This document shows positions 30,606-61,250 of a stretch of DNA of 64,000 bases, piece by piece. The notes under the pieces are model-generated. The model was not told the origin of the DNA, searched no databases, and worked only from the letters and a program-made list of their open reading frames with translations. The DNA is taken from positions 1-64,000 of the forward strand of contig JARLFY010000012.1 of the NCBI GenBank assembly GCA_031296325.1, written 5' to 3'. Position numbers and translations under genes: made by a program. Source of the stretch: Acidobacteriaceae bacterium (lineage in GTDB: Bacteria; Acidobacteriota; Terriglobia; Terriglobales; Acidobacteriaceae). Numbering within the stretch: position 1 is the stretch's first letter; each line of letters starts with the position of its first letter.

Positions 30606-33563
30606 CTACTTTGCGTTAACGGTCAGGCTGTACGTCGCCGAATGAACCAGAAATCCATCGGTCGCCGTCACCGTCACGTTGTAGTTCCCTGCTGCGGTCC
30701 ATGCCGGATTCTGATCTGGCAATTTGCCCGTGCAGCCAGTCAGCGAGAGGCCCATGACCGCCAGCAATATTGCCAGCAGTCCTCCCCGCAGCAAGGCGCG
30801 TCCGTTCCTGCGCTTGGACCACAAGAGCCATCCGCTGCCCACTCCAACCAACCACAGGTAGCCACCTCCGCCATAGCCACCATAGCCGATCACGGTGTAC
30901 TGCGAGGTTGTGCCGATGCTGGCCACCGCCGTTACTGCCACCGTCGGAATCACTGTCCCCGGCGCCAAGGTGCAGGTGGACGCAGACGCTCCTGTCGCCA
31001 TCGCGCAGCTCAACGTAAGCTGCGACGCGAAGCCGGCCAGCGGAGTCAGCGTCGCGGTCGTTGACGTTCCATCGCCTGCATACACCGTCCCCGAGGTTGG
31101 GTTGAGCGTGATCGTGAAGTCGACTCCGTTTCCGCTGAAGCTGGCACTCAATCCGCTGTAGACCAGATCGCTCGAATTATCCGCGAGCGTTCCACTGCGC
31201 GGCCCCGTCGTCTGCGGAATAAAAGTCACGGTAACCAGACAGCTCGCCTGCGCGCCGACCACCTTGCCGCATGCCGCTGTGCTGACGGAGTAGTCGCCCG
31301 TCATCGCAAAGACCGGCACGGCCAGCGCGCGCTGGGCGACGCTGGTCAGCGTCAAAGTCTGCGACGCGGGAAAACCCACATCCTGATTGCCAAAGCTCAG
31401 CGTCGTCGGCGAGAGGGTGAACCCCGGAATCCCGGTTCCGGTCAACGTCGCAGTCAGCGCACTCGGCTGAGTGTTTACCGTCAGCGTTCCAGTCTGAACG
31501 CCCAGCGCTGTCGGCGAGAAGGTTACGGCGACCACACACGTTCCCAACCCCGGCACCGGATTGGCGCATCCCGCAGTATTCACGGAAAAGTTACCCGTGG
31601 TGAACGACGCTGGCAATGCCTGAGGCTGTTTCGAGGTGCTGGTCAGCAGCAGCGATTGCGTTGCGGAGTCGCCCACCACTACATTGCTAAAGCTCAGCGC
31701 ACTCGCCGAGAGCGAGAATCCCAGAATCCCGTTCCCGGTCAGCGTCGCCGTCTGCGCATTCGGCAGTGTGTTTACCGTCAGCGTTCCCGGCAGAACTCCC
31801 AGAGCTGTCGGCGAGAAGGTCACCTTGGCCACGCATGTCCCCATTGCGGGAACCGGATTGGCACAGCCCGCCGTGCTTTCGGAGTAGTTGGCTGTGGTAA
31901 ACGAACTCGGCACCGCCTGCGGGCCGCTGGCGTTGCTGGTCAGCGTCAGCGATAGCGTTGCGAAGTCGCCGATCGCCACGTTGCCGAAGTTCAACGCGTT
32001 CGGCGAGAGCGAGAAGCTCGGAACGCCCGTTCCGGTCAGCGCAGCGGTCTGCGAAAATGCTGCGGAGACCACCGTAAGCGTCCCCGTGCGAACGCCCAGC
32101 GCCGTCGGCGTAAACCCAACCGTCACCGTGCAGCTCTGCCCGCCCGCCACGGTGACGTTGGTGCAACTATCTGTAGCAAGATTGAAGTCGCCTCCGGTAA
32201 CGTAGGTCGAGGAGACCGTCATCGGGAAGCTGGAGTTATTGGTCCAGGTAAAGGTCTGCGTAGCAGCGGGATAGCCCACCGCCTCCGACCCAAAGTCGTA
32301 TGTGGCCGGCGAGATCGAGGGCTGTCCGCCATCGTCGGTCAACTCGAAGAGCATGTACTCCAGCAGCTTTTCCTGCGCCGTCATCGCCCCGGAGCTACAC
32401 TCTGTGGGGAACTTCTCCGTCCCCGTGCTGGACCCGCCCTCGACATGATACTCGTTGTACAGAACCCGTCCACACTGGTTTGTTGCTGCAATCGGTGTGT
32501 CAAAGACGAACTGCATCACCGGATTGCCAAAGGCTGAGTTATTCAGCGTCAACCAGGACTGCGTCGGCGCAATCACGCCATTGGTGTCCTTGCGCAAGGT
32601 GGAGATCGACATCTGCCCCGGCGTCGTGGTCGCCCCAACATCCTGCAACCACGTTGCCAGCGTCTGACCCGCCGTAAAGCTGGTGTTGACCGTCGCAACT
32701 CCCGGATCGGGCGTCGGCGAGCTTGAGCTTCCGATCCAACTGGCGACGCCATTGAACGGCGGATTCTGGTACATCCACGAGTAGCTGTAGTGGCTGCTGT
32801 AGACGCGTCCGCCGGCGTTGGCAAAGTCAATCAGGTTGGCCAGTTCCTGCGCTGGCTTCAGGTAGTTTCCGCCCTCACAGGGAAGCATCAACGCGTCATA
32901 ATTTTGCAGCGTCGAGTAAGTTCCCATCAGCGAAGCCTGCGTGGGCGTGTTCGCGTCTACGATCACACCCGATCCCGCTGCGCCGCCACCGCCAAACAGG
33001 TTGATTCTTCCTCCGCCGCCGGGGTTTGTGAACTCCGAGTCGCTGATTCCCATCTTGCGCAGTACACACTCCACCGGATCGGCGGAGCCAGTCGCAATGG
33101 CGATCAGGGGAATGTCCCCCTGCGACTGGTTCTGCGGCATCACGGCTAAACTTGCGGGCAGAGCGGTATTGACGCAGGCCGTCGTGCTGGAAATGACCAA
33201 ATGCCGCCGCCAACGTCCGGACACAATCACCAGCGGAATATTCGTTCCCACGGGCACATTGCTCAGGGTAAAACTGCCATCGACCGCGGTAATCGTCCCC
33301 ACCAGCGGCGAGCCGGAAGGAGCGGAACCAGCCACCGGACAGCTCACCCCCGGGGTAAACGCATCCACCGGCGCATTGGGAATGTACACCGTGACATTCG
33401 GCAGCGGATCGGTGCCATTGGGCGCGTAGACCACTCCGCTGATCGACGTGGTGGCACCAGCGGTACAGGTCGTCTGTTGTAGACACAGGCCAGTGCAACT
33501 CTGCGCAGCGGCTACGCCACCCAATCCAAGCACAAAGATCAGCAGTCCCAAAAATCTACGCAT
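30606..33563 (-). CDS. secreted protein with SPD-2-type repeats and ThuA-like domain
   Basis: 985 aa from ATG 33563 (MRRFLGLLIFVLGLGGVAAAQ, a signal peptide); the track's longer start adds 42 non-signal residues. Order: carboxypeptidase-regulatory-like domain (about 40-130), a globular region with DALMLPCEGGNYLKPAQEL and GGRVYSSHYSYSW resembling ThuA/glutamine-amidotransferase-like folds (about 165-405), then four repeats of about 100 residues (about 413-820) of the ASPM-SPD-2-Hydin type (pattern FG..AVG..A and TFSPTALGV.TGTLTV). The end has a transmembrane stretch (YLWLVGVGSGWLLW), then a lipobox-like LTGC and a short beta segment common at the end of acidobacterial surface proteins. Probably an envelope protein; the role is not known. 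Confidence 0.75.
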   Translation of the reverse strand: MRRFLGLLIFVLGLGGVAAAQSCTGLCLQQTTCTAGATTSISGVVYAPNGTDPLPNVTVYIPNAPVDAFTPGVSCPVAGSAPSGSPLVGTITAVDGSFTLSNVPVGTNIPLVIVSGRWRRHLVISSTTACVNTALPASLAVMPQNQSQGDIPLIAIATGSADPVECVLRKMGISDSEFTNPGGGGRINLFGGGGAAGSGVIVDANTPTQASLMGTYSTLQNYDALMLPCEGGNYLKPAQELANLIDFANAGGRVYSSHYSYSWMYQNPPFNGVASWIGSSSSPTPDPGVATVNTSFTAGQTLATWLQDVGATTTPGQMSISTLRKDTNGVIAPTQSWLTLNNSAFGNPVMQFVFDTPIAATNQCGRVLYNEYHVEGGSSTGTEKFPTECSSGAMTAQEKLLEYMLFELTDDGGQPSISPATYDFGSEAVGYPAATQTFTWTNNSSFPMTVSSTYVTGGDFNLATDSCTNVTVAGGQSCTVTVGFTPTALGVRTGTLTVVSAAFSQTAALTGTGVPSFSLSPNALNFGNVAIGDFATLSLTLTSNASGPQAVPSSFTTANYSESTAGCANPVPAMGTCVAKVTFSPTALGVLPGTLTVNTLPNAQTATLTGNGILGFSLSASALSFSNVVVGDSATQSLLLTSTSKQPQALPASFTTGNFSVNTAGCANPVPGLGTCVVAVTFSPTALGVQTGTLTVNTQPSALTATLTGTGIPGFTLSPTTLSFGNQDVGFPASQTLTLTSVAQRALAVPVFAMTGDYSVSTAACGKVVGAQASCLVTVTFIPQTTGPRSGTLADNSSDLVYSGLSASFSGNGVDFTITLNPTSGTVYAGDGTSTTATLTPLAGFASQLTLSCAMATGASASTCTLAPGTVIPTVAVTAVASIGTTSQYTVIGYGGYGGGGYLWLVGVGSGWLLWSKRRNGRALLRGGLLAILLAVMGLSLTGCTGKLPDQNPAWTAAGNYNVTVTATDGFLVHSATYSLTVNAK

Positions 33564-37059: not shown

Positions 37060-37992
37060 ATGCGCCAAATCAATCAGGTCGTCTGCCTCTTTGCCGCTCT
37101 AATGCTTCCATTGCTTGCCGCACAACCAGCGTTTGGGTGGGGCAGCGATGGCCACAAAATCATCAACCGACTGGCCGGAGCCGCTCTGCCTGCGGATGTT
37201 CCGGCGTTTCTGCGCTCGCCTGCCGCGCTCGACGCGCTGGAGTACTATGGGCCGGAGCCGGATCGCTGGCGCTCTCCCGCAGAGCCAGAGTTGAACGCCG
37301 CGCAGGCCCCCGAACACTTCATCGACCTCGAATACGCCGACCTGATCGGAAAGCTTCCCCGCCGCCGTTACGACTACATTCGCGCCCTCGCAGCGGCGCA
37401 AGCGGCCCATCCCGAGATCCGCCTGACTCCGGAGAAGGTTGGCCTACAGCCCTACGTCACCAGCGAGGTCTACGAGCGCCTGCAAAGCGCCTTCCGCGAC
37501 TATCGCGCCCTGCTCGCCGCAAAGCAGAACACCAAGCCCTCGGAGGCGGAGATCGTCTTCCTCGCGGGCTGGCTCGGCCACTATGTAGCGGACGGATCCA
37601 TGCCGCTGCATACGTCGATCCAGTACAACGGCTGGACCGGCCCGAATCCGCATGGATATACCACCGAACACCACATCCACGCGCAGTTCGAGAGCGACTT
37701 TGTGCATGAAAACGTGAACCTGGCAGACGTTGCGCCACTGGTTGCCGCGACAAAACCAACCACACTGAATGACGTCTTTGCGGAATATCTGCTGTATCTT
37801 CGCCACTCCAACTCTCTGGTGGAGAAGACTTACCAGTTGGACAAGGAGGGTGCGTTTACCGGAGCGGGAACTCCCGCAGGAAAGGCCTTCGTAGACCAGC
37901 AACTGGCCGCCGGAGTCATCGAACTACGCAACATGATCTACACCGCGTGGGTAAAGTCAGCCGAGCCTGTGCCAGTCTATCAGGGCAATTAG
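37060..37992 (+). CDS. S1/P1-family zinc nuclease
   Basis: 310 aa from ATG 37060; the track's 37003 start falls inside a dispersed repeat. A signal peptide (VVCLFAALMLPLLAAQPAFG) is followed directly by WGSDGHKIINRLAG, whose mature N-terminal Trp and His are zinc ligands in this family. Further ligands appear in APEHFIDLEY, LGHYVADGSMPLHTS and HHIHAQFESDF. Exported S1/P1 nucleases degrade single-stranded DNA and RNA, often for nutrient scavenging; phospholipase C relatives share the fold. The window's phosphatase could use the released nucleotides, which is inference. Confidence 0.85.
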   Translation: MRQINQVVCLFAALMLPLLAAQPAFGWGSDGHKIINRLAGAALPADVPAFLRSPAALDALEYYGPEPDRWRSPAEPELNAAQAPEHFIDLEYADLIGKLPRRRYDYIRALAAAQAAHPEIRLTPEKVGLQPYVTSEVYERLQSAFRDYRALLAAKQNTKPSEAEIVFLAGWLGHYVADGSMPLHTSIQYNGWTGPNPHGYTTEHHIHAQFESDFVHENVNLADVAPLVAATKPTTLNDVFAEYLLYLRHSNSLVEKTYQLDKEGAFTGAGTPAGKAFVDQQLAAGVIELRNMIYTAWVKSAEPVPVYQGN

Positions 37993-38028
37993 GGAATTTT
38001 GAGTAATGACGTAGCCATCGTGGAGTAG

Positions 38029-38070
38029 GCAAAAGCAGATTCCTTTGCTTCGCTACGGAATGACAAACAA
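38029..38070. repeat. dispersed hairpin repeat, type A
   Basis: GCAAAAGCAGATTCC ... GGAATGACAAACAA with stem ATTCC/GGAAT around a TTTGCTTCGCTAC loop. No tail follows in this copy; the PIG-L stop lies 28 nt on. Confidence 0.8.
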
Positions 38071-38098
38071 ATTGACTGCGCGAGAGGCACAGTCGCCG

Positions 38099-38836
38099 CT
38101 ACAGTCCGGCAAAGAGGTCGGTGGTATGAGCGGCGGGTTGAGGATTGGGCGTAGCGGCCAGCATGTAATGCTCCTGGCTGGCGCGCTGCTCGAAGAAGCC
38201 CTGGAAGCGTACCATCAGCGGAAGCTGCGTGGTATGGGCACGGAAGGCCTCGAACTTGCGCTGCTGCACGCGGCTGGTGTCCAGCGTAACGGTCCACGGC
38301 GCGGGCAGAGGCGCGGGACGGCCGGGAAAGAAGAAGCTGCTGGTCGCATAATAGAGCCGATCGGCGGAGTGAATCGGGCCGAGTGTGGGAAAGCGTTTGG
38401 CCTGCGCCGCCCACTGAAAGGCCGCCGTGGTGAAGAAAGAGACCATGGAGTGATCGGCGTGGGTGTTCATGGCGCCGTCGCCGCCGAAGGTGATAACGAC
38501 GTTGGGGCGATAGGCGCGGATGCGCTCGACCAGCAGGGCTGCGGCCTTGGAGAAGTCGGCAAACTCAAGCTGACCGTCCTGATAATCGAGAACCTCGTGA
38601 CGCTTGACGCCGAGAACCTTGCACGATGCAGCAAACTCCTCGCGACGCAGGCGTCCCAACTCGGCGGGAGTGACGGCTGTGCCGCGATTGGTCGCGGCCT
38701 GCCCGTCAGTAAAGCAGATCGCATAGGTCTCGATGCCGCGCTCTGCGGCCAGCATCAACGCTCCGCCAAAGCCGAAGCACTCGTCGTCGGGATGGGCGGT
38801 GACGCAAAGAAGTTTGAGGGGAGATTGATCGCTCAT
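38099..38836 (-). CDS. PIG-L (LmbE-like) family deacetylase
   Basis: 245 aa. Zinc-binding motif AHPDDE at about residue 14 and the second motif THADHSMVS at about 122, with FGGDGAMN before it. PIG-L/LmbE enzymes remove acetyl groups from N-acetylglucosaminyl-type substrates (glycolipids, mycothiol or bacillithiol precursors). No neighbour fixes the substrate. No signal peptide, so it is cytoplasmic. Flanked on both sides by dispersed type A repeats. Confidence 0.85.
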   Translation of the reverse strand: MSDQSPLKLLCVTAHPDDECFGFGGALMLAAERGIETYAICFTDGQAATNRGTAVTPAELGRLRREEFAASCKVLGVKRHEVLDYQDGQLEFADFSKAAALLVERIRAYRPNVVITFGGDGAMNTHADHSMVSFFTTAAFQWAAQAKRFPTLGPIHSADRLYYATSSFFFPGRPAPLPAPWTVTLDTSRVQQRKFEAFRAHTTQLPLMVRFQGFFEQRASQEHYMLAATPNPQPAAHTTDLFAGL

Positions 38837-38908
38837 AGCTGTATCAAGGGTAACGCAGATGGCAATCTAAAGTATCTTCGGGAATGGATGTAGACCGTCA
38901 TGGTGCGA

Positions 38909-38980
38909 GCAAAAGCAGATTCCTTCGCTTCGCTACGGAATGACAAACCAATTGGTCTATAGCAATTCCTAAAATACTCC
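38909..38980. repeat. dispersed hairpin repeat, type A with tail
   Basis: Complete composite unit: GCAAAAGCAGATTCC, loop TTCGCTTCGCTAC, GGAATGACAAACCA, then tail CTATAGCAATTCCTAAAATA. Best reference copy for the family together with 53880-53950. Confidence 0.85.
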
Positions 38981-39045
38981 AAGTGGACAGATTCAACAGC
39001 GTTGCCTCGATCGCGCTTCGCAATCAAGGCAACGCGGAAACTTTC

Positions 39046-40332
<1,287 letters not shown>

Positions 40333-40479
40333 TAATTCATCGCTCCTGAGAACCCAACCGTCGTGCGGGGTATATGTTAAGTTTACACCTGATGCTGGCT
40401 GCGCACACTCCGCCTTGGTTACCCCGGTTCCTCTTCTGGTTCCACCAATTTGGCAAAGAGATAAATCGTCAACGAGCGA

Positions 40480-40520
40480 GCAAAAGCAGATTTCTTCGCT
40501 TCGTTACGAAGTGACAAGCG
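40480..40520. repeat. dispersed hairpin repeat, type A variant
   Basis: GCAAAAGCAGATTTC ... GAAGTGACAAGC with one altered stem arm. It sits between oligopeptidase B and clpX, so it may be transcribed in the 3' region of the former. Confidence 0.7.
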
Positions 40521-40565
40521 AATGGGAAAACAACAAGCGAGTTGGACTATATCTCTCTGAAAACT

Positions 40566-42929
40566 CTATAGCGCGACGATCTCAAGCTGGGTCAAGAGAA
40601 AGGCGTAGTCGAAGGCGATCTCCTTGAGATAGTCGTAGCGTCCGCTGGCTCCGCCGTGGCCTGCGTCCATGTTGATGTGCAGGAGCAGCGGAGTGGAGTC
40701 GCGCTTGAGGGTGCGCAGCTTGGCGACGTATTTGGCTGGCTCCCAATACATGACCTGCGAGTCGTTGAGGCTGGTCTTGACCAGCATCGCTGGCGTGGAT
40801 GTTCCAGCCAGACTATTGAGGTTCTCGTAGGGCGAGTAGGCGTGCATGATGGCGAAGGCCTCCGGCTCGTTGGGATTGCCCCACTCCTCGTACTCGGCTA
40901 CGGTCAGCGGCAGGCTGGCGTCGAGCATGGTGTTCATCACGTCCACGAAGGGGACGTGGGAGAGGACGACGCGGAAGAGGTTGGGGCGTCCGGTCTGCGC
41001 GGCGATGTTGACGACCGCTCCCATCAGCAGGCCTCCGGCGCTGCCTCCCTCGATGGCCACGCGGGAGGCAGCGCCGTAGCCGCTGGCAACCAACTGCTCG
41101 GTGGCGTCGATGAAGTCGGTGAAGGTGTTCTTTTTGACGGCCATCTTTCCCGCGTCGTGCCATGCGTCGCCCAGTTCGCCGCCGCCGCGAATGTGCGCGT
41201 AGGCCATCACAACGCCGCGATCCAGCAGCGAGAGGCGCGTGGGCGAGAAGCCAACCGGCAGCGGGTAACCATAGGATCCGTAGCCGTATACGTAGAGCGG
41301 ATTGGCGCCGTCGCGGTGGAAGCTGTCGCGACGATAGACGATGGAGGTGGGAACCTTGGTGCCGTCGGAGGCGGTGATCCAGACTCGCTCGGAGGCGTAG
41401 TTGGCGGGATCGAAGCCGCCGGGAACAAGCTGCTGTTTGAGCAGACGCGAGTGTCCGATGGGAAGCGTCGCGTCGCTGCGGGAGACGTTGTACTCGTAGA
41501 CCGAAGAAGGCGAGACCAGCGACTGATAGCCGTAGCGGAAGACATCGGTTGTGAAGACTTGGTTGACGTGCGCCGAGGCCGAGTAGGTTGGCTCGGGGAA
41601 GGCGATCTCGACCGGCGCGGCAAAGGCTGGATCCCAGGACTCGGAGTCGTGAGATGGGGTAGAGGTGAAGGAGGGAGAAGCAGATCCCTCCGCTTCGCTA
41701 CGGGATGACAACAAAATGCTGCGGGATGACGCCAGATTTTGGTGGGATGACACATCTACGCTAGTGGATGACAATTGGTCGCTGATGGATGAATGCGTAT
41801 TGCTGGGGGATGATGGCGTATTGCTGGTGAAGCGGAGGACTTCGAGGGTGGGCAGGCCAAGCTTGCGGCGCGTGGCCACGGCGAAGGATTGAAAGAGGTC
41901 GAAGTCTTCCAGCGGATGGTCTGCGTCGAGCGGGATCAGTTCGCGCCAGTGGTTGCGGTCGGGCGTCGAGGGCGAGGCGGTGACGACGCGGAAATTTTTG
42001 CCCGTGTCGTTGGTGCGGATATAGAAGAGGCCGCCCGTCTCTGGCGAGGAGCGGTGATCGGGGTAGTACTCCTGATCGTCCATGCGGGGAGCGATGAGGC
42101 GGAACTCTCCTGTGGGATTGTCCGTCGGCAGAAAGCGGTACTCATTGGTGGTGTGGCTGCCACATTCAAGCAGGAGATATACCCCGTCGCGAGTGCGGCC
42201 AACGCCGAGGTTGAAGCGCTCGTCCTCCTCGTGGAAGACCTGCGGGTCTTCGGCTGTGGGCGCGCCGAGCGTGTGGCGGAAGAGGCGATCCTGTCGCTTG
42301 GTGGTCTCGTCCTCGGTGGAGTAGAAGAGGGTGAGCGAGTCGGCAGCCCAGGCCAGCGAGCCGACGCGCTCCGCTGTATCGGATAGGTCGGCACCGCTGC
42401 GCAGGTCGCGGATGTGCAGCGTGTACTGGCGAAAGCCAGTGTTATCCGTGGAGTAGGCGAGAAGGTTTCCATCGGGACTGATGGACAGCGCTCCGAGGGA
42501 CATGAAAGGCTGGCCCTCGGCCAGTGCGTTCACGTCGAGGATGACCTGCTCGGGCTGCGTGGGGTCGAAGGCGGAGTTGAGGTCTGCACTGGACGCGGCG
42601 CGGCGACAGTGGATTGGATATTGACTGCCCTCAACGGTGCGGGTGGAGTAGAACCACGCGCCGAGGCGGTAGGGAACGCTCTCGTCGGTCTCCTGAATGT
42701 GGGAGAGCATCTCGGCGTAGAGCTTGGCCTGCAGGTCGGCGGTGGGAGCCATGACGGAGGCGGTATAAGCGTTTTCGGCGTTGAGGTAGGCGAGCAGTTC
42801 GGGAGAACTTTTGTCGCGCATCCAGCGGTAGTCGTCGTGCAGCGTGACGCCATGCACTGTGGTGGGCGTGGGATCGCGTCGCGCAATAGGCGGCTGAACG
42901 AGTGCAGGGAGAGCGCTGGACTGGGACAT
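40566..42929 (-). CDS. ptrB: oligopeptidase B-like S9 peptidase with repeat insertion
   Basis: 787 aa from ATG 42929 (MSQSSALPALVQPP); the track's earlier start is an in-frame TTG. An N-terminal beta-propeller (DDYRWMRDK to the middle) precedes an alpha/beta-hydrolase domain with nucleophile motif GGSAGGLLMGA, Asp in TSLNDSQVMYWEPAKYV and His in DAGHGGASGRYDY. Oligopeptidase B cleaves short peptides after Arg/Lys in the cytoplasm. Between LEVLRFTS and PVEIAFPEPTYSA the family normally has only a few residues; here about 60 Ser-rich residues in heptad repeats are inserted, encoded by a hairpin repeat plus a 21-bp tandem array. Confidence 0.9.
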   Translation of the reverse strand: MSQSSALPALVQPPIARRDPTPTTVHGVTLHDDYRWMRDKSSPELLAYLNAENAYTASVMAPTADLQAKLYAEMLSHIQETDESVPYRLGAWFYSTRTVEGSQYPIHCRRAASSADLNSAFDPTQPEQVILDVNALAEGQPFMSLGALSISPDGNLLAYSTDNTGFRQYTLHIRDLRSGADLSDTAERVGSLAWAADSLTLFYSTEDETTKRQDRLFRHTLGAPTAEDPQVFHEEDERFNLGVGRTRDGVYLLLECGSHTTNEYRFLPTDNPTGEFRLIAPRMDDQEYYPDHRSSPETGGLFYIRTNDTGKNFRVVTASPSTPDRNHWRELIPLDADHPLEDFDLFQSFAVATRRKLGLPTLEVLRFTSNTPSSPSNTHSSISDQLSSTSVDVSSHQNLASSRSILLSSRSEAEGSASPSFTSTPSHDSESWDPAFAAPVEIAFPEPTYSASAHVNQVFTTDVFRYGYQSLVSPSSVYEYNVSRSDATLPIGHSRLLKQQLVPGGFDPANYASERVWITASDGTKVPTSIVYRRDSFHRDGANPLYVYGYGSYGYPLPVGFSPTRLSLLDRGVVMAYAHIRGGGELGDAWHDAGKMAVKKNTFTDFIDATEQLVASGYGAASRVAIEGGSAGGLLMGAVVNIAAQTGRPNLFRVVLSHVPFVDVMNTMLDASLPLTVAEYEEWGNPNEPEAFAIMHAYSPYENLNSLAGTSTPAMLVKTSLNDSQVMYWEPAKYVAKLRTLKRDSTPLLLHINMDAGHGGASGRYDYLKEIAFDYAFLLTQLEIVAL
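41677..41826. repeat. type A hairpin repeat plus 6 x 21-bp tandem array inside ptrB
   Basis: 41677-41710 is a type A element (stem ATCCC/GGGAT around TCCGCTTCGCTAC). From 41701 six units of exactly 21 bp follow (starts 41701, 41722, 41743, 41764, 41785, 41806), each with GGATGA near its start and most ending in GCTG. Unit 1 overlaps the 3' arm of the hairpin. In the gene's frame each unit encodes seven residues with a recurring Ser-Ser pair, so the reading frame is kept. Confidence 0.85.
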
Positions 42930-53838: not shown

Positions 53839-53950
53839 AAATGCGGGGATTCTTCGCTGCGCTCAGAATGACAAACAAAGCAAAAGCAGATTTCTCCGCT
53901 TCGCTACGGAATGACAAACAATTGGGCTATAGCAATTCCTAAAATGTTGT
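53839..53950. repeat. dispersed repeats, type B + type A + tail in tandem
   Basis: Type B (53839-53878), type A (53880-53921) and the tail CTATAGCAATTCCTAAAATG follow each other directly. This is the most complete assembly in the window and shows that A, B and tail are modules of one family. It lies between two convergent genes. Confidence 0.85.
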
Positions 53951-61112: not shown

Positions 61113-61250
61113 CATTAGAGCGTTTTTGTCTTGCTATAGACACAAAATGTATTGCCATCCTAAACAGTTACCCAATTGCCGTAGCCCGTTATTTATCATT
61201 TCGCATCTCTTTATTTGTCATTCCGCAGCGAAGCGGAGGAATCTGCTGTC
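61113..61250. repeat. dispersed repeat, type A and tail in inverted orientation
   Basis: Read minus, the type A core (61250-61211, stem ATTCC/GGAAT) is followed after about 70 bp by the tail motif CTATAGCAAGAC ... CGCTCTAATG (61139-61113). The core-then-tail order matches other copies but the spacing is larger. Confidence 0.65.

Follow-up and report, generated by a model that had tools for sequence, protein, structure and literature searches.

An in-frame palindrome-like repeat with a 21-bp tandem array in the oligopeptidase B gene of an Acidobacteriaceae bacterium

Palindromic repeats that lie in frame within protein-coding genes are known from Rickettsia, where they are called RPE, and from Wolbachia (PMC3733652, PMC2229807, PMC10969869). 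The RPE of Ogata et al. (2000, 2002) are short repeats found in frame in many unrelated, mostly conserved genes, they encode a recurrent peptide and fall into several families within one genome, and one RPE-bearing enzyme, Gmk, has been reported to be translated and active (PMC10969869, PMC2229807, PMC3733652). REPs of the CGTC and GTAG types have been described within the open reading frames of many species from several phyla, with clusters that sometimes encode 43-82 residues (PMC3733652; BMC Genomics 2013) and with tRNA synthetase and repair genes among the hosts (PMC3733652). In the CGTC families the stems measure 8-9 bp, the loops 4-5 nt and the tails are CCA-like; none of these families is listed from Acidobacteria (PMC3733652). 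The Correia elements of Neisseria form two related subtypes, a 107-bp intragenic form and a 155-bp intergenic form, the latter with stops in all frames (PMC2229807). In the literature searched, we found no description of in-frame palindromic repeats in Acidobacteriota. Here we examine such a repeat in ptrB, the gene for oligopeptidase B (OpB), on a 64,000-nucleotide stretch of DNA that we call the window. In our judgment ptrB is probably one host of many in an RPE-like, in-frame and nearly neutral repeat invasion of permissive loops in Edaphobacter/Granulicella.

The repeat and its array in ptrB

Table 1. Features of the ptrB locus, related repeats in the window and NrdJ linkers carrying the element.
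Feature	Position or genomes	Strand	Remarks
ptrB, oligopeptidase B, S9 prolyl oligopeptidase family	40566..42929	-	host gene; Pfam and solved relatives
Extra in-frame stretch, about 63 residues, Ser-rich	41640..41828 (end points approximate)	-	orthologue comparison
Non-repeat Ser/Thr/Pro/Asp-rich remainder of the extra stretch	41640..41675	-	sequence and orthologue alignment
GGG-subfamily palindrome-like repeat	41676..41717	-	coding strand TTGTCATCCCGTAGCGAAGCGGAGGGATCTGCTTCT, read as LSSRSEAEGSAS
Tandem array, six 21-bp units	41697..41822	-	3' arm of the repeat shared with unit 1
Related repeat, GGA type, single copy	38918..38944	+	outside genes
Related repeat, GGA type, degenerate	53889..53915	+	outside genes
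Related repeat, GGA type	61217..61243	-	outside genes
NrdJ linker with GGG-element DNA	G014, G086, G047, G028, G002, G018, G022, G011		

The ptrB product is a full-length OpB, with Pfam matches to Peptidase_S9_N (4e-97) and Peptidase_S9 (4e-60). It has the S9 propeller and hydrolase with their Ser/Asp/His motifs, and the catalytic-motif residues are intact and invariant in 22 homologues. By sequence and by fold its best solved relatives are OpB enzymes; the predicted model aligns to 7ywp with 39% identity and a TM-score of 0.95 to the target. A preliminary description had proposed that a genomic repeat was inserted in frame here, with a gain of about 60 Ser-rich residues in a propeller loop, and our analysis bears this out. 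The reading frame is open through the whole repeat and array, and the repeat is an exact match to GATCCCTCCGCTTCGCTACGGGATGAC, of which the window holds four copies at up to three mismatches and shuffled sequence none. The distance from RRK to FPEP is 90 residues, compared with 27 in most orthologues, among them those of G017, G008, G001 and G025, and Ser accounts for 25 of the 69 residues from TSNT to DPAF. AlphaFold predicts that the insert, which lies in a propeller loop, is disordered (pLDDT 21-32) and that the rest is a normal, well-folded OpB; AlphaFold2 places the unstructured residues 371-431 between two propeller strands. Of about 35 same-genus OpB orthologues compared, most do not have the extra residues, which supports the insertion reading, and in a few this turn carries inserts of another kind. 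In the related species G037 the same loop of ptrB holds both ends of this element, TTGTCATCCCGC and GAGGGACCTGCTTCT, flanking a different hairpin, and thus the turn is a permissive site that was used more than once or remodelled. Support inside this clade of the ptrB tree is weak.

The array consists, as first described, of six exact 21-bp units that begin with the 3' arm of the hairpin. Unit 1 is the repeat's 3' arm plus tail, the encoded heptads are ILLSSRS, NLASSRS, VDVSSHQ, DQLSSTS, NTHSSIS and NTPSSPS, and a seventh 21-bp register (41823-41843, codons EVLRFTS) is host sequence already. The units have diverged from one another (33-81% identity), and their mean pairwise identity is 0.57; 5,000 codon shuffles gave 0.27, with a maximum of 0.39. 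Spaced at 21 bp, GGATGA is seen five times in the array and nowhere else in the window (shuffles, 0.36). The hairpin had been ascribed to an intergenic family; a palindrome-like repeat is indeed present, but the hairpin is weak and the copy belongs to a mostly gene-borne sister subfamily (GGG) rather than to the intergenic one (GGA). Its arms are about 5 bp long and bulged, its single-strand folding (z = -0.7) is no better than that of shuffled sequence, and a search for inverted repeats of at least 12 bp found none at this site. An Rfam scan of 41000-42500 returned only sub-threshold chance matches. A role of the repeat as an intrinsic terminator was rejected, as no terminator-like call falls on its copies in 37900-42000.

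Two subfamilies inside and outside genes

The 2.6-Mb genome contains about 300 relatives of the repeat and no match to a reversed control pattern. They form two subfamilies, distinguished by both arms of the stem: GGA (GATTCC..GGAATGACAAACAAAG), which comprises the great majority of the genome copies, and GGG (GATCCC..GGGATGACAACAAAG), with about a dozen. Because both arms change together (ATCCC/GGGAT in GGG, ATTCC/GGAAT in GGA), and because GGG copies occur outside genes in other species, codon drift was rejected as the sole cause of the GGG stem. Inverted pairs of GGA copies, spaced about 105-145 bp and frequently close to the ends of contigs, are found in G000 (C69:55-195, C73:19938-20065, C13:31974-32118, C39:150-291); these form a composite MITE- or BIME-like element that probably breaks assembly. 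The repeat is presumably mobile. In close relatives the element is found at different sites, and in some cases at the same one. Counting against the preferred reading, mobility left no direct sign: no clean empty/filled site with target duplication was found, and the ptrB loop is too diverged among the available species to show a duplication. Mobilization by RAYT/Y1 was rejected: a Y1/RAYT transposase (PF01797, Y1_Tnp) was not found in this 88.8% complete genome, and none of 12 loci with Y1 transposases in relatives has a copy of the repeat beside it.

The two subfamilies differ in where they reside. A copy was called genic if an open frame crossed the element and a codon-usage score trained on the window supported coding, and copies were sampled from this genome and five relatives (G017, G037, G009, G034 and G088). 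With counts resting on sampled stretches, and copies partly non-independent as some sites are common to several species, 39 of 48 GGG copies are genic compared with 10 of 103 GGA copies (Fisher p = 3e-18). A stricter test, requiring open and coding sequence across up to 300 nt on both sides, gave 9/12 versus 2/78 in this genome alone (p = 2e-8). All but one of the 39 genic GGG copies share one orientation and phase, encoding (L)LSSRSxAEGSAS. Stop codons were rejected as the cause of this one-frame use, since five of the six frames of one unit are open in both subfamilies; the hydrophilic sense frame EADPSASLRDDNK is also open, yet hardly used. The intergenic GGA copies sit 3' to genes and have the sense orientation that is also seen in the in-gene copies; where coding sequence adjoins the tail or array side, the gene is directed towards the element in 27 of 29 instances (p = 2e-6). 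The one-orientation bias in genes may therefore in part reflect the family itself and not peptide tolerance. Copies oriented in this way include L080, L320, L090, L288, L302 and L007, and those at 38918 and 38038 of the window.

These distributions fit the preferred reading imperfectly. The near-confinement of GGG to genes in this clade is unlike random insertion followed by purifying selection, as intergenic GGG copies ought to survive more easily, and the near absence of the open EADPSASLRDDNK frame from genes also counts against it. The strongest rival, which we regard as unlikely, is that GGG is a lineage specialized for genes: it would spread from gene to gene, entering or surviving almost only in the transcribed orientation and in one phase, with a sequence shaped to encode a tolerated, protein-compatible linker and with expansion by codon-multiple units, so that residence in genes would be a property of the element and not only survivor bias. 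The skewed residence and the uniform orientation and phase favor this view, as do the joint change of the stem arms, which looks like a DNA lineage and not codon drift, and the orientation to transcription that is fixed even in intergenic copies; moreover, GGA is stop-free in the corresponding frames, so stops do not explain its absence from genes. On the other side, 13 of 23 GGG copies lie outside genes in more distant genus members, and an old GGG wave that was lost from intergenic DNA and kept in genes would look identical. We know of no gene-targeting mechanism for such repeats. Both the confinement of GGG to genes and the rarity of the EADPSASLRDDNK frame could be explained by a gene-specialized lineage, or alternatively by an old wave whose copies survive only at places where a deletion has to preserve the frame.

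Host linkers and array periods

The ptrB insertion is one of dozens in frame within the genus. Hosts confirmed by NCBIfam/Pfam are Der (with two different insertions), ValS, GlmS, TrmFO, thymidine phosphorylase and an OmpR-type response regulator, and PrmC has a related copy in another phase. In L133:3-3032, a sodium:solute symporter domain and a beta-lactamase-family domain share a single open frame, and the linker between them contains a LSSRSAAQGSAS copy. The same linkers of ValS, Der and NrdJ (the B12-dependent ribonucleotide reductase) have been colonized recurrently by different repeats. The ValS linker reads LSSRSxAEGSAS in G000, G017 and G009, and other repeat-like peptides occupy the same turn in G008 (CHSDTERSEGSES), G034 (CHPERSAKREVEGP) and also G037. 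The ValS proteins of G017 (L378, GTPKGAEGKPKGTGGKPEGAGG) and G037 (L369) have a second, unrelated Gly/Lys-rich expansion at another loop, which is absent from G000 and G008. The NrdJ linker contains exact or near-exact GGG-element DNA in the genus members listed in Table 1 and VILSEAKNP-, VILSERSESKDP- or VILSGGAAGVEGSA-type peptides in others; judged from their recurrence, the latter are putative members of other repeat families. Across the NrdJ linker loci L393-L422 (e.g., L393, L397, L409 and L417) the repeat-derived or repeat-like peptide varies in type by species.

In eight genus members the core element persists at one and the same NrdJ linker, and in three the core peptide does so at one ValS linker, which is what might be expected if the Ser-rich linker (LSSRSxAEGSAS plus heptads) had been domesticated and kept for a function in the host protein. 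We think this improbable, as in other species these linkers are either without an insert or occupied by unrelated repeat-like peptides, most OpB orthologues have no insert, and the loop position varies among E, A, V and G in genes just as the base does outside them.

Tandem repetition of the 3' arm together with about 12 nt of tail is frequent in both subfamilies. Outside genes the array periods range from 18 to 26, mostly 21-24, and the period is constant within the locus in 13 of 16 non-coding arrays having at least two spacings, a pattern that would fit slippage at each locus. Within genes the spacings are only 18, 21 or 24, and even though the open-frame definition of genic itself partly favors multiples of 3, these make up 35 of 35 genic spacings compared with 36 of 86 outside genes. 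Thus, the reading frame filters the array period. Counted by array, only multiples of 3 are found in 20 of 20 genic and 16 of 54 other arrays (Fisher p = 1e-8). The 21-bp period of ptrB, earlier thought to be selected, is accordingly constrained by the frame; we see no sign of a benefit, and the pattern corresponds to purifying filtering. Two further tandem repeats were observed. L250 (G017:C7, around 1206-1377) has three 72-bp copies, each the whole element plus a PNPYPIEAN spacer, that share one open frame and adjoin a run of N. The window at 31386-32053 holds a 297-bp repeat (2.2 copies, 77% matches), which is probably a repeated protein domain.

Since non-coding copies carry the same type of array, the ptrB array is a habit of the family and not a local accident. 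This bears on the earlier proposal that a hairpin of the intergenic family landed in ptrB and then underwent locus-specific slippage with a selectively favored 21-bp period. The exactness of the period and the identity of unit 1 with the 3' arm agree with such a local origin; however, a period of 21 bp is common in non-coding arrays too, the ptrB copy is a member of the GGG subfamily, and in G037 this site also holds the ends of the element, all of which make it a poor account of the locus. A local origin of the array habit is contradicted, as intergenic copies carry arrays with other periods, while the slippage step itself is plausible. That the array is an assembly artefact, or a protein-level low-complexity loop that only looks repetitive in DNA, is hardly credible even for a draft genome of 94 contigs, as a duplicated read would not give such divergence between units, the DNA of the repeat recurs, exactly or nearly so, at about a dozen further places as well as in other assemblies, and the identity of the units is far above that of codon shuffles.

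Under the preferred reading, a nearly neutral invasion of permissive loops, a short (~40 bp) dispersed palindrome-like repeat would have inserted in frame at a permissive beta-turn of the OpB propeller, and its 3' arm and tail would then have multiplied six-fold in tandem, as is habitual for the family. We infer replication slippage at the small hairpin, with each locus fixing its own unit length. Genic copies that break the frame or are otherwise unsuitable would be purged by purifying selection, and the survivors would be those whose orientation, phase and unit length keep the frame open and encode a hydrophilic, Cys-free, disordered peptide.

Comparison with known systems

In-frame invasion of proteins by repeats is known chiefly from Rickettsiales, which are intracellular and have reduced genomes. 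Here it concerns a free-living soil acidobacterium, core genes (der, valS, glmS, nrdJ) and the same linkers in many species. The useful part is the comparison of coding and non-coding arrays: the matched non-coding copies show what selection on the reading frame removes, and together they form a natural experiment on the peptides and lengths that proteins tolerate and on how linkers grow. For annotators, segments resembling LSSRSEAEGSAS in this genus are repeat-derived. If true, a gene-specialized GGG lineage would continually supply a bacterial genus with disordered linkers.

REPs in general are short, dispersed, present in many copies and mostly extragenic near gene ends. The GGA subfamily, which makes up most of the roughly 300 copies, conforms to this, with 93 of 103 sampled copies outside genes and 27 of 29 placed 3' of a gene, whereas the GGG subfamily is not mainly extragenic. 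The Y1/RAYT gene flanked by the repeat that marks RAYT-associated REPs was not found in this 88.8% complete genome. The CGTC REPs have a tag (CGTC or TGTC/CCTC) and a stem starting with AT, and the coding strand here likewise reads TGTC-ATCCC...GGGAT; however, the stem here is bulged (5+2 bp), the loop is about 6 nt and the tail is CTGC (judged by eye), and one arm plus tail forms direct repeats. The split of GGG and GGA between genes and intergenic DNA recalls the two Correia subtypes, although GGA, the intergenic form, has no stops in the frames concerned. Compared by description, the ptrB repeat appears to work like an RPE, occurring in frame in many unrelated conserved genes (Der, ValS, GlmS, TrmFO, OpB) with a recurrent peptide, though size and stem differ: RPE are ~105-150 bp long with a long stem-loop, compared with ~40 bp and a folding z of -0.7 here. 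The family described here differs further from RPE in its phylum, Acidobacteriota, in its built-in arrays, with multiples of 3 in genes and other periods outside, and in having a sister subfamily that is kept outside genes.
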